NCBI GenBank assembly: GCA_012839745.1
Contig: DUMS01000007.1
Location: 1-64,000, forward strand
Direction: 5' to 3'
Source of the DNA: Tissierellia bacterium
GTDB taxonomy: Bacteria; Bacillota; Clostridia; Tissierellales; Tepidimicrobiaceae
Length of the DNA: 64,000 bases
Shown: positions 10,139 through 57,745 of the stretch, one piece after another
How the letters are laid out: the number at the start of each line of letters is the position of its first letter
Numbering within the stretch: the first letter of the stretch is position 1
Made by a program: the position numbers and the translations under genes
The notes under the pieces: model-generated
The model's database searches: none
What the model saw: only the letters and a program-made list of their open reading frames with translations
What the model was told of the DNA's origin: nothing

Positions 10139-10496
10139 GATGAGTAAATCGGATGATCGCATGCTTATTAAAGCATGAGGAAAGTCCGTGCTCCATAGGG
10201 CAGGATGCTGGATAACGTCCAGTGGGGGCGACCCTAAGGATAGTGCAACAGAAATATACCGCCTGGCACTAACTGGTTTAATGCCAGGTAAGGGTGGAAA
10301 GGCGAGGTAAGAGCTCACCAGCAGCTAGGCGACTAGCTGGCTCTGTAAACCCCATCTGGAGCAAGACCAAGCAGGGACTAAAAAAAGGTGGTGGCCCGCT
10401 ACCGTCCCAAAGGTAGGTCGCTAGAACTTATTGGCAACAATAAGTCATAGATAGATGATCATCTGAGACAGAACACGGCTTACAGATTTACTCATC
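10139..10496 (+). ncRNA. rnpB: RNase P RNA (class A)
   Basis: Catalytic RNA of ribonuclease P, which removes 5' leaders from pre-tRNAs. The ends pair as the P1 helix: GATGAGTAAATC at 10139-10150 with GATTTACTCATC at 10485-10496. Universally conserved segments are present in order: GAGGAAAGTCCGTGCTC, CATAGGGCAGGATGC, GATAGTGCAACAGAAATA, AAGGGTGGAAAGGCG, GTAAACCCCATC and ACAGAACACGGCTTAC. The layout resembles the ancestral class A RNA found in many Clostridia rather than the Bacillus class B. It has its own promoter and a strong terminator. Confidence 0.96.
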
Positions 10497-10504
10497 AAAG
10501 ACGT

Positions 10505-12575: not shown

Positions 12576-12673
12576 TGGCAGAGTAGATAGCTTGCGTTAA
12601 GTGTTAGAGGATGGAACGTTGCCTCTAAACGAAAAGCTTAAAAGCTTGCGTTAAGCTATCGCGTTCGCTGTCA
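12576..12673 (+). promoter_or_regulatory. Tetrahydrofolate (THF) riboswitch
   Basis: Matches the THF aptamer in order: GAGTAGATAG at the 5' side, the conserved TGCGTTAAGTG (12593-12603), an internal stem-loop TAGAGG...CCTCTAA, ACGAAAAGC, a second TGCGTTAAGC-like pass and the closing CGCGTTCGCTG. The outer helix TGGCAG / CTGTCA closes it. It sits about 65 bases upstream of the folate transporter start. Between aptamer and gene a dyad GATGTGGTAGTACTGCCATATC (12695-12716) and the AAAAGGAGG SD suggest control of ribosome access rather than a classical terminator. The rest of the 298-base gap (12491-12575) is AT-rich, with no other feature seen. Confidence 0.92.
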
Positions 12674-27599: not shown

Positions 27600-28343
27600 A
27601 TGTCAGGACATTCAAAATGGAATAATATAAAGAATAAAAAAGGAAAGGAAGACGCAAGAAGAGCTAAAGAGTTTACTAAGCTGGGAAGGTATATAATGGT
27701 GGCAGCCAGGGAAGGAGGTCCGGATCCAGACTATAATCCAGCTTTAAAGGCAGCTATAGAAAAGGCAAAGGCTGCAAACATGCCTAATGAAAATATAGAA
27801 AGGGCCATTAAGAAGGGCGTTGGAGAATTGGATAGTGGCTCCTTTGAAGAGATAACATATGAAGGATATGGACCAGGTGGAATAGCAGTTTATGTATCCT
27901 GTCTGACTGACAATAGAAATAGAACTGCATCTGATATAAGACATGCTTTTGATAAGGTAGGCGGAAACCTTGGACAAACCGGATGTGTTTCATTCATGTT
28001 TGAGAGAAAAGGATTGCTGTTCATTGAAAACAAGGATGGAATTACTGAAGATGATTTGATGCTGGAAGCCATTGATTTGGGAGCTGAAGACTTTGAGGTA
28101 ACAGAAGATGGATATGAAATTACAACAAGCCCTGAAAATTTTGATAAGGTAAGAGATGGACTGGCAAAAAGCGGATACGAGTTTACAGTTGCAGAGATTT
28201 CCTTCTTGCCAATAAATACAACTGTGCTTACAGATGAAAAGGATATTAGGAATATGATGAGGCTTATAGATATACTGGAAGATAATGATGATGTTCAAGC
28301 AGTGTACCATAACTGGGAAATGCCAGAGGATTTGGAAGCTTAA
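27600..28343 (+). CDS. YebC/PmpR/TACO1 family protein
   Basis: 247-aa three-domain protein beginning with the universal [28 protein letters not shown] signature (in part) and containing [16 protein letters not shown] and [31 protein letters not shown]. Members act as transcriptional regulators and/or ribosome-associated translation factors for proline-rich stretches; which applies here is unknown. ATG with AAGGAGGT 9 bases upstream. Confidence 0.95.
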
Positions 28344-28378
28344 TGCAGGCTTAAACCTTTTTATAATGAATAAAGCAC

Positions 28379-28428
28379 TTCCTCTTTAAGCATACTACTA
28401 TAGTAGAAAAAAATGCTTAAAGGAGGAA
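28379..28428 (+). promoter_or_regulatory. Inverted repeat enclosing the SD of the 57-codon gene
   Basis: TTCCTCTTTAAGCAT (28379-28393) pairs with ATGCTTAAAGGAGGAA (28413-28428): 15 base pairs with one bulged base. The loop contains the palindrome CTACTATAGTAG. The whole SD AAAGGAGG is inside the descending arm, so an RNA started upstream would have this ribosome site closed. Confidence 0.6.
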
Positions 28429-28432
28429 AGCC

Positions 28433-28606
28433 ATGCCAACTGATACCAATTTCGAAGCAATAAAAGAGAGATTCAGAAATGCGGATGTAGACGGCAAAAT
28501 TGACATTTATACAAGTGTTCAGGGCTTAACAGTGGAGCAGTACAAGGAGCTTTTGAGGATGTTTCCTATTAAGTATTTAGACAAATTGGAGAAGGCAATG
28601 AGCTAA
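28433..28606 (+). CDS. Small conserved-looking hypothetical protein (57 aa)
   Basis: 57-aa soluble, amphipathic protein starting MPTDTNFEAIKERFRNAD and ending FPIKYLDKLEKAMS. The ATG has AAAGGAGG 5-6 bases upstream and the ORF is followed by a strong hairpin terminator, which together support a real gene. No signal peptide or membrane helix. I do not recognise the family. The centre (KIDIYTSVQGLTVEQYKELLRMFP) looks like a small helical bundle. Its ribosome site is buried in an inverted repeat. Confidence 0.72.
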   Translation: MPTDTNFEAIKERFRNADVDGKIDIYTSVQGLTVEQYKELLRMFPIKYLDKLEKAMS

Positions 28607-28612
28607 ATGGGA

Positions 28613-28642
28613 AAAAGTTGAAAGAAGCATCTTTCAACTTTT
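28613..28642 (+). terminator. Terminator after the 57-codon gene
   Basis: Perfect 12-bp stem AAAAGTTGAAAG / CTTTCAACTTTT with a 6-base loop; TAACTTTTA follows. Confidence 0.8.
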
Positions 28643-56027: not shown

Positions 56028-56741
56028 TTGAGAGGTTTATTTTTGAATTTAAAACTGCAATTATATAAAATTTTATATAGGATTGGTCTTTTAGATAGCA
56101 TTTATTATATAGGAAGTGGTGAGATTCTTCCTCCGCCACTGAAACCGGAGGAAGAAAGCTATTTTTTAAACAGATTGAAGTACGATAATAGCATTAAAAG
56201 CATTTTGATAGAAAGAAATTTAAGATTAGTAGTGTATATTGCAAAAAAGTTTGAGAATACAGGGATTAATATAGAAGATCTGGTTTCCATCGGGACAATA
56301 GGTTTAATAAAAGCTGTAAACACATTTAACCCTGAGAAAAACATTAAATTGGCAACATATGCATCAAAATGCATTGAAAATGAAATTCTGATGTATTTAA
56401 GAAGAAACAGCAAATTAAAATCTGAAGTGTCCTTGGATGAGCCTCTGAATGTAGATTGGGATGGAAATGAACTGCTATTGTCCGATATATTGGGAACTGA
56501 TGGAGATATTATATTTAAGCTTTTGGAGGATGAAGTGGACAAAGAACTGCTAAATCAAGCCATAGGTAAGCTTTCGAGAAGAGAAAAGACAATTGTCGAG
56601 TTGAGATTTGGCTTAAAAAGCGGAAAGGAAAAAACCCAAAAGGAAGTGGCAGACATGTTAGGCATATCCCAGTCTTATATATCAAGGCTGGAAAAGAGGA
56701 TTATAAAGCGATTAAGAAAGGAAATGGTAAAGCTTATGTGA
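56028..56741 (+). CDS. sigE: Mother-cell RNA polymerase sigma factor E (pro-SigE)
   Basis: 237-aa sporulation sigma factor made as an inactive precursor. The pro-sequence [26 protein letters not shown] (first about 30 residues) matches the region removed by SpoIIGA. Region 2 has [38 protein letters not shown] (in parts), region 4 ends with [28 protein letters not shown] start with GGATAGGGGGAG upstream, 12 bases after spoIIGA. Confidence 0.97.
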
Positions 56742-56766
56742 CAGCACTTTGCTGTCACATTTTTTA
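56736..56766 (+). terminator. Rho-independent terminator after sigE
   Basis: Stem ATGTGACAGC / GCTGTCACAT around the sigE stop codon, followed by TTTTT. Confidence 0.92.
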
Positions 56767-57652: not shown

Positions 57653-57745
57653 TAATCATTACCTCACCAAATTTTAGTAATATTTTAAATGCTTTTTTCA
57701 ATATATATAGTAATGAATATATAGGAAGAGGTGAGGTAATGATTA
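57653..57745 (+). promoter_or_regulatory. 16-bp perfect inverted repeat enclosing the SD and start of ymxH
   Basis: TAATCATTACCTCACC (57653-57668) and GGTGAGGTAATGATTA (57730-57745) are perfectly complementary with a 61-base AT-rich loop. The right arm holds the SD GAGGTGAGG and the ATG of ymxH; the left arm starts 4 bases after the sigG stop. Read-through RNA from sigG would hide the ymxH start, while RNA starting inside the loop would not. Confidence 0.75.

Follow-up and report, generated by a model that had tools for sequence, protein, structure and literature searches.

The question raised by this locus is why the ribosome-binding site of a small open reading frame should be buried by the sequence that lies just upstream of it, and in which transcripts the burial can occur. 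The locus lies in a 64,000-nucleotide stretch of DNA from a Tissierellia bacterium, referred to throughout as the window, in which the first-pass annotation had reported a 15-bp stem with one bulge around the Shine-Dalgarno (SD) sequence of an overlooked 57-codon gene, and had offered an RNA switch, an anti-read-through insulator, or thermal or antisense control as explanations. The stem is confirmed: when positions 28365-28470 are folded, 28379-28393 pairs with 28413-28428 in 15 pairs with a single bulge, and the SD sequence falls entirely inside the 3' arm, ahead of the ATG at 28433. The minimum free energy of the fold is -20.1 kcal/mol (z -2.94), and none of 200 shuffled sequences reached equal stability. 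The features of the locus are as follows.

27600-28343, + strand: yebC/PmpR-family gene, from which read-through is expected (NCBIfam NF001030 above cut-off)
28368-28372, + strand: predicted -35 element GAATA, sigma-G type (promoter pattern)
28379-28393, + strand: 5' arm of the stem, running through the promoter spacer into the opening bases of the -10 element (by folding)
28391-28397, + strand: predicted -10 element CATACTA, sigma-G type (46 of 68 loci have the exact pattern)
28395-28406, + strand: 12-base palindrome CTACTATAGTAG in the loop (read from the sequence)
28404, + strand: predicted transcription start, placed about 7 nt past the -10 element
28413-28428, + strand: 3' arm of the stem, with the bulge at 28422 (by folding)
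28419-28426, + strand: Shine-Dalgarno sequence AAAGGAGG (read from the sequence)
28433-28606, + strand: 57-aa sporulation-associated gene, 57 codons (open reading frame, orthologues, co-occurrence with sigF/sigG, structure model)
28613-28642, + strand: terminator-like hairpin of the small gene (terminator scan)

The 12-base palindrome to which attention had also been drawn is present in the loop, where it overlaps the -10 element and the predicted start, but the nine relatives aligned with the window do not retain it, and it is judged to be incidental.

On the sequence comparisons made here, the open reading frame is a genuine gene that travels with spore formation. Of 100 genomes, 68 have a match, counting the one to which the window belongs, as do 19 of 20 genomes in the family and 4 of 291 genomes sampled across the class, again with its own counted. 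If the presence of sigF/sigG is defined by a best E value below 1e-70, a threshold chosen by the analyst, then 67 of the 100 genomes have such a match and 66 of these carry the gene, the single exception being a genome that is 78% complete. Among the 33 genomes which have no sigF/sigG match the gene occurs in two, both of them incomplete and both with congeners that have sigG, so the gene is almost restricted to genomes that carry sporulation sigma factors (66/67 versus 2/33). The terminator-like hairpin downstream of the gene (0.9 expected by chance in the stretch) agrees with the earlier claim that the overlooked gene has a terminator of its own. Searches of Pfam, NCBIfam, PDB sequences and PDB folds assigned the protein to no family; an AlphaFold model predicts four short helices (mean pLDDT 80) and yielded no convincing PDB relative. 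The gene is offered as a knock-out target that encodes an unnamed, sporulation-associated small protein.

An alignment of the 68 upstream regions contains a conserved element, GHATA followed after 16-19 bases by CATAMTA, which we take to fit the sigma-G consensus. The pattern, a sigma-G consensus that was sharpened after the tested sequences had been viewed, occurs exactly within 150 nt in 46 of the 68 loci, compared to 0.12 expected from dinucleotide shuffles, and with at most one mismatch in 56 of the 68, compared to 2.9 expected. In the window it reads GAATA (28368-28372), 18 bases, CATACTA (28391-28397). Because the exact pattern with a spacing of 17-19 is found 25 times genome-wide on both strands, versus 12 times for a reversed control pattern, it is not diagnostic when taken alone, whereas its conservation upstream of the orthologues is. 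The 5' arm of the stem thus sits in the spacer of what is predicted to be a forespore promoter of sigma-G type, upstream of the start. Since the predicted start, at about 28404, falls in the loop, the gene's own mRNA would lack the 5' arm and could not form the stem.

It follows from the same placement of the start that only read-through from yebC could form the stem. The stop codon of yebC lies 24 nt ahead of the -35 element of the 57-aa gene, and the terminator scan of the window detected no terminator between the two genes. Folding predicts -25.1 kcal/mol for the read-through RNA, with the SD sequence sequestered in the stem by the upstream arm, and -4.3 kcal/mol for the RNA from the gene's own predicted promoter; in the latter the SD sequence is still predicted to be partly paired (0.54), which counts against an insulator. 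A polymerase leaving yebC would copy both arms, the message would fold, and ribosomes would be unable to start, while a sigma-G polymerase would initiate in the loop near 28404 and produce a message without the 5' arm, which would be translated. The bases between the -35 and -10 elements would be little constrained by the promoter and thus free to carry the complement of the SD sequence. On balance it is probable that the 57-aa gene is a forespore sporulation gene of sigma-G type and that the stem is a read-through insulator set within its promoter.

The stem would instead be part of the gene's own message and regulate it, as a thermometer, a riboswitch or the target of a small RNA, if transcription began upstream of the 5' arm. 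A TATAAT at 28362-28367 could supply such a start, since a message beginning just past it would include the arm, and the leader of the B. subtilis sigG message also contains a small hairpin at the SD sequence, according to Mearls et al. (PMC5942855). This alternative is nevertheless improbable, because the sigma-70 scan lists no promoter at the TATAAT, which is not conserved while the sigma-G-type elements are, because orthologues do not consistently keep the stem, and because an Rfam search returned no match at the locus, on which ground a riboswitch or other known RNA family was rejected there. Neither a known RNA family nor a conserved, structured leader in the gene's own message was found. 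Of the explanations offered by the first-pass annotation, the switch and the thermometer are therefore not supported, as there is no Rfam match, a conserved structured leader is lacking and the predicted own mRNA would be without the arm, and the anti-read-through insulator, whose 5' arm would be promoter DNA and whose pairing follows exposure to upstream transcription (see below), is the best candidate of the three. It is more improbable still that the repeat is a DNA-level palindrome for a regulator which includes the SD sequence by accident. The overlap of the 12-base palindrome with the -10 element and the predicted start would suit such a site, and another stem found in the scan, at an IclR-type gene (L130:1993), looks operator-like; a protein site would, however, keep its sequence, whereas the arms vary between species while their complementarity is kept, and the palindrome is lost in relatives.

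A more serious competitor to the insulator is chance complementarity, in which case the window would simply be the best-pairing locus of the 57-aa gene, and other sporulation genes might still have true insulators. The window-stem duplex (-21.5 kcal/mol) is matched by 14 of 5000 dinucleotide shuffles when the 57-aa gene is taken singly, a frequency that is not remarkable for one gene's stem set in a whole genome, and the combination of T-rich spacers before CATAMTA with purine-rich SD sequences means that some loci will pair well by composition. A comparison of own with foreign arms over the 54 loci that could be scored (14 of the 68 were dropped for want of a promoter that lies within 60 nt of the start and departs from the pattern by one mismatch at most) gave -6.42 versus -5.63, p=0.001, an excess that rests on few loci and is also seen, weakly, in loci called non-exposed (4/5000). 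As this comparison is weak over all loci, the loci were divided by exposure: a guarding arm is expected where a co-directional gene stops nearby and is unterminated, and a locus was accordingly classed as exposed if a co-directional open reading frame ends within 60, 80, 100 or 150 nt upstream with no terminator. For these four limits, respectively, the probability that the SD sequence is paired upstream of the start is 0.71, 0.70, 0.66 and 0.59 in the exposed loci (n=13, 16, 19 and 23) and 0.30, 0.27, 0.25 and 0.26 in the rest of the 54, with p values of 1.2e-4, 2.6e-5, 2.1e-5 and 3.9e-4. Relative to shuffled upstream DNA at the limit of 60 nt, exposed loci have 0.71 where 0.44 is expected, and the rest have 0.30 where 0.32 is expected; the contrast holds when corrected by this shuffling (p 1.7e-4 to 4.5e-4), which argues against chance, and when loci of the same genus are merged (p 1.4e-4 to 5.3e-4). 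The scripted grouping supersedes a first one, with L001 labelled open and L020 terminated by hand, in which the values were 0.71 in 10 open loci versus 0.36 in 11 terminated loci (p=0.013). Among the 10 "open" loci, a consensus stem of 8 pairs between spacer and SD sequence has 91.3% of its cells paired, compared to 80.8 in shuffles (0/500), and five of its pairs are changed on both sides, a covariation that also speaks against chance.

The distribution of the arm is uneven, and it supports either side in part. Many orthologues have no stem, and in a single genus, represented by L004, L007 and L008, everything from a near-perfect arm to none at all is seen, as chance would allow; the long stems of L001 and L006, which are kept with a compensatory change (AAGCAT/ATGCTT versus AAACAT/ATGTTT), are not what chance would lead one to expect. 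The absence of the arm in orthologues, which the first-pass annotation had named as a refutation, is thus borne out in part, but the orthologues without a stem are mostly those with an intervening terminator or a distant upstream gene. The exposed loci L008, L021, L026, L043 and L045 show no excess of pairing over shuffled upstream DNA, and pairing is low in L025, which lies directly behind yebC and was not classed as exposed by the script. A version of the test based on foreign-arm percentiles fades as the gap limit is widened (p 0.0015, 0.0065, 0.05 and 0.12) and gives p 0.036 to 0.32 when collapsed by genus. Overall, the search that had been proposed for orthologues and for covariation of the stem found the former in 68 of 100 genomes and the latter in the 10 open loci, with a weak excess of own-arm pairing over all 54; retention of the arm by selection is likewise weakly indicated over all loci of the 57-aa gene and indicated in the exposed ones, and it is found at the sister genes described below. 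Chance complementarity at the 57-aa gene is in our judgement unlikely.

The read-through insulator proposed for the 57-aa gene has counterparts at other genes, at which the SD-hiding design is better supported by sequence comparison than at the 57-aa gene itself. The like design that had been claimed for ymxH in the window is real, and its stem is formed by the following arms.

57657-57668, + strand: 5' arm of the ymxH stem, CATTACCTCACC (folding and covariation)
57730-57741, + strand: 3' arm of the ymxH stem, GGTGAGGTAATG, containing SD sequence and start codon (folding and covariation)

These cases were evaluated by a swap test in which the pairing of each SD sequence with its own arm is compared to its pairing with the arms of other species, using 5000 permutations and no model of the tree, and in which yebC and sigG served as controls of the same kind. 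Own arms are favoured over foreign arms, with 0/5000 permutations in each case, at ymxH (30 loci, -17.48 versus -13.11 kcal/mol), sigK (30 loci, -20.03 versus -16.71 kcal/mol), a SafA-like gene (28 loci, -15.03 versus -12.23 kcal/mol) and a PBP2/SpoVD-like gene (28 loci, -21.32 versus -12.85 kcal/mol). The controls show no such pairing (yebC, 467/5000 in 20 loci; sigG, 3586/5000 in 30 loci). The ymxH and sigK tests took 30 fetched loci from 68 and 42 matching genomes; of the 30 loci fetched per gene, two SafA-like and two PBP loci gave no usable start, and a usable yebC start was available in 20 of 68 loci. Beyond the family of the window the signal persists at ymxH (0/5000, 11 loci) and sigK (1/5000, 16 loci). 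Class-wide outside the order, where one own-order locus per gene was deliberately omitted and one more sigK locus had no start, it is kept at sigK (28 loci, 0/5000) and not at ymxH (28 loci, 1152/5000). The 10-pair ymxH stem has 88.7% of its cells paired, and in 38 cells both partners are changed, compared to 13.6 in shuffles (0/500).

In the loci that match a -10 pattern, the patterns being those of sigma-F, sigma-E and related factors and partly shaped by the data, the arm lies upstream of the predicted start in 19/19 PBP loci (of 28), 29/29 sigK loci (of 30), 11/11 SafA-like loci (of 28) and 28/28 ymxH loci (of 30). At the PBP gene the 5' arm lies just 5' of a conserved TTGGTAATACTA, which stands in the hairpin loop and presumably represents a sigma-F -10 element; given this fit, the layout would match the one at the 57-aa gene but serve a different sigma factor. 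The PBP case rests on the swap test, since RNAalifold applied to a MAFFT alignment of the loci gave a poor consensus (-0.6 kcal/mol). The hairpin of this gene (L128:15994-17652; orthologues L300-L329), which stands before sigK, is the strongest covarying SD-hiding hairpin seen. At sigK itself (L128:17714-18412; L220-L249, L333-L362) a GGCACC near the predicted -35 element pairs with a GGTGCC after the SD sequence, with compensatory changes, across Clostridia. In seven genomes (G001, G003, G018, G036, G049, G055, G060) sigK is matched only partially, and in G003 as two pieces on different contigs; this may reflect either an inserted element of the skin type, as found in other cases, or the ends of contigs.

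The layouts of ymxH, sigK, the SafA-like gene and the PBP gene suggest repeated use where a stage- or compartment-specific gene follows a gene whose expression differs in time or place. The extent of this use in the genome was assessed in a sample consisting of the window and 20 further stretches (414,082 of 2,173,694 bases, 345 scored genes), in which 14 SD-pairing stems of -18 kcal/mol or stronger were found compared to 2.72 expected in shuffles, so that such stems are commoner than in shuffled sequence. Two relatives without sigG have 37 strong stems versus 36.0 expected and 17 versus 12.5, and a spore-forming relative has 6 versus 1.9, with the differences in GC content between these genomes (0.495, 0.313 and 0.416 versus 0.36) handled only by shuffling each. 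The 14 stems include those of the 57-aa gene, ymxH, sigK (identified by TIGR02846 above cut-off), the SafA-type LysM gene (TIGR02899 above cut-off), the PBP2/SpoVD-like gene, which scores below the equivalog cut-offs, and gpr. The excess in the sample, the further sporulation genes and the little or no excess in the two sigG-less relatives uphold the earlier suggestion of a recurring control mode. The remaining strong stems precede genes whose names do not point to sporulation, among them murA, mreB and the genes of an IclR-type regulator and an ABC transporter. The gpr gene (L135:6261) was rejected as an insulator case, its high rank being due to its divergent arrangement with rpsT, in which two SD sequences face each other. 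The strongest SD-pairing stem of the sample, at -25.6 kcal/mol, lies in an ATGCAT-like repeat at murA (upstream of 49949 in the window). The IclR-type regulator gene (L130, upstream of 1993) has an operator-like repeat, TTGTCCATTATATGGACA...GTGGACAACAGGAGG, that runs into its own SD sequence.

As a general proposal, which we hold tentatively and somewhat short of an even chance, promoters of stage- or compartment-specific sporulation genes of Clostridia spore-formers (sigma-F, -E and -G types) would store the reverse complement of the gene's own SD sequence in or beside the spacer between the -35 and -10 elements, such that read-through from a neighbour that is active at a different time or in the other cell is silent, and terminators and arms would be interchangeable, swapping as gene order changes.

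The best reading of these cases is a promoter-embedded read-through insulator of the type of T4 gene e and B. subtilis sigG, used repeatedly here. In Mearls et al. 2018 (PMC5942855), a read-through hairpin at B. subtilis sigG (spoIIIG), whose proposal is credited to Masuda et al. 1988, is described as having 20 or more pairs and as hiding the ribosome-binding site only in read-through from PspoIIG; it cannot form in the PsigG transcript. The likeness is that a sporulation gene follows one belonging to a different stage and has its ribosome-binding site hidden in read-through; the difference is that the account given there concerns a single gene, whereas the same layout occurs here at several genes of the programme. 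In the genomes studied here, sigG has no such SD pairing, unlike the B. subtilis gene as described there, and in the window a terminator-like hairpin (about 56739-56766) lies between sigE and sigG, where B. subtilis reportedly has the read-through hairpin. The small ribosome-binding-site hairpin of B. subtilis sigG, which damps translation 2-4-fold according to the same text, likewise occludes the SD sequence of a sporulation gene, but it forms in the gene's own mRNA, while the 57-aa stem could not form in its predicted own-promoter mRNA. For T4 genes e, soc, 49 and I-TevI, PMC3014915 and PMC2988022 describe long early transcripts that sequester the SD sequence and a late promoter, placed within the 5' arm or close to it, that yields short, translated messages, with an approximately 100-fold effect for e. 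Both an SD-hiding long transcript and a nested promoter are predicted here as well, the difference being that those cases involve a phage with a late sigma factor and the present ones sporulation sigma factors and chromosomal neighbours. The kinship with T4 gene e and the B. subtilis sigG hairpin that is claimed on this analogy would be one of mechanism and not of descent. A regulon-wide design of such insulators was not found in the titles and abstract openings of the open-licence literature, a body which leaves most subscription journals outside; what seems to be new is that several genes of a single developmental programme share the design, with the arm inside or beside promoters of varied sigma types and in alternation with terminators.

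A sporulating cell runs two compartment programmes from one chromosome, on which sporulation genes stand directly behind housekeeping genes, and how the wrong protein is kept from being made by read-through leakage is rarely asked; sigG is the sole bacterial case that was found. A repeated, promoter-embedded solution would give promoter spacers a job and would allow guarded genes to be predicted from sequence, and gene prediction that relies on an accessible SD sequence can misjudge genes insulated in this way. Among the other RNA features of the window, Rfam places a class A RNase P RNA at 10141-10498 and a THF riboswitch at 12577-12672.
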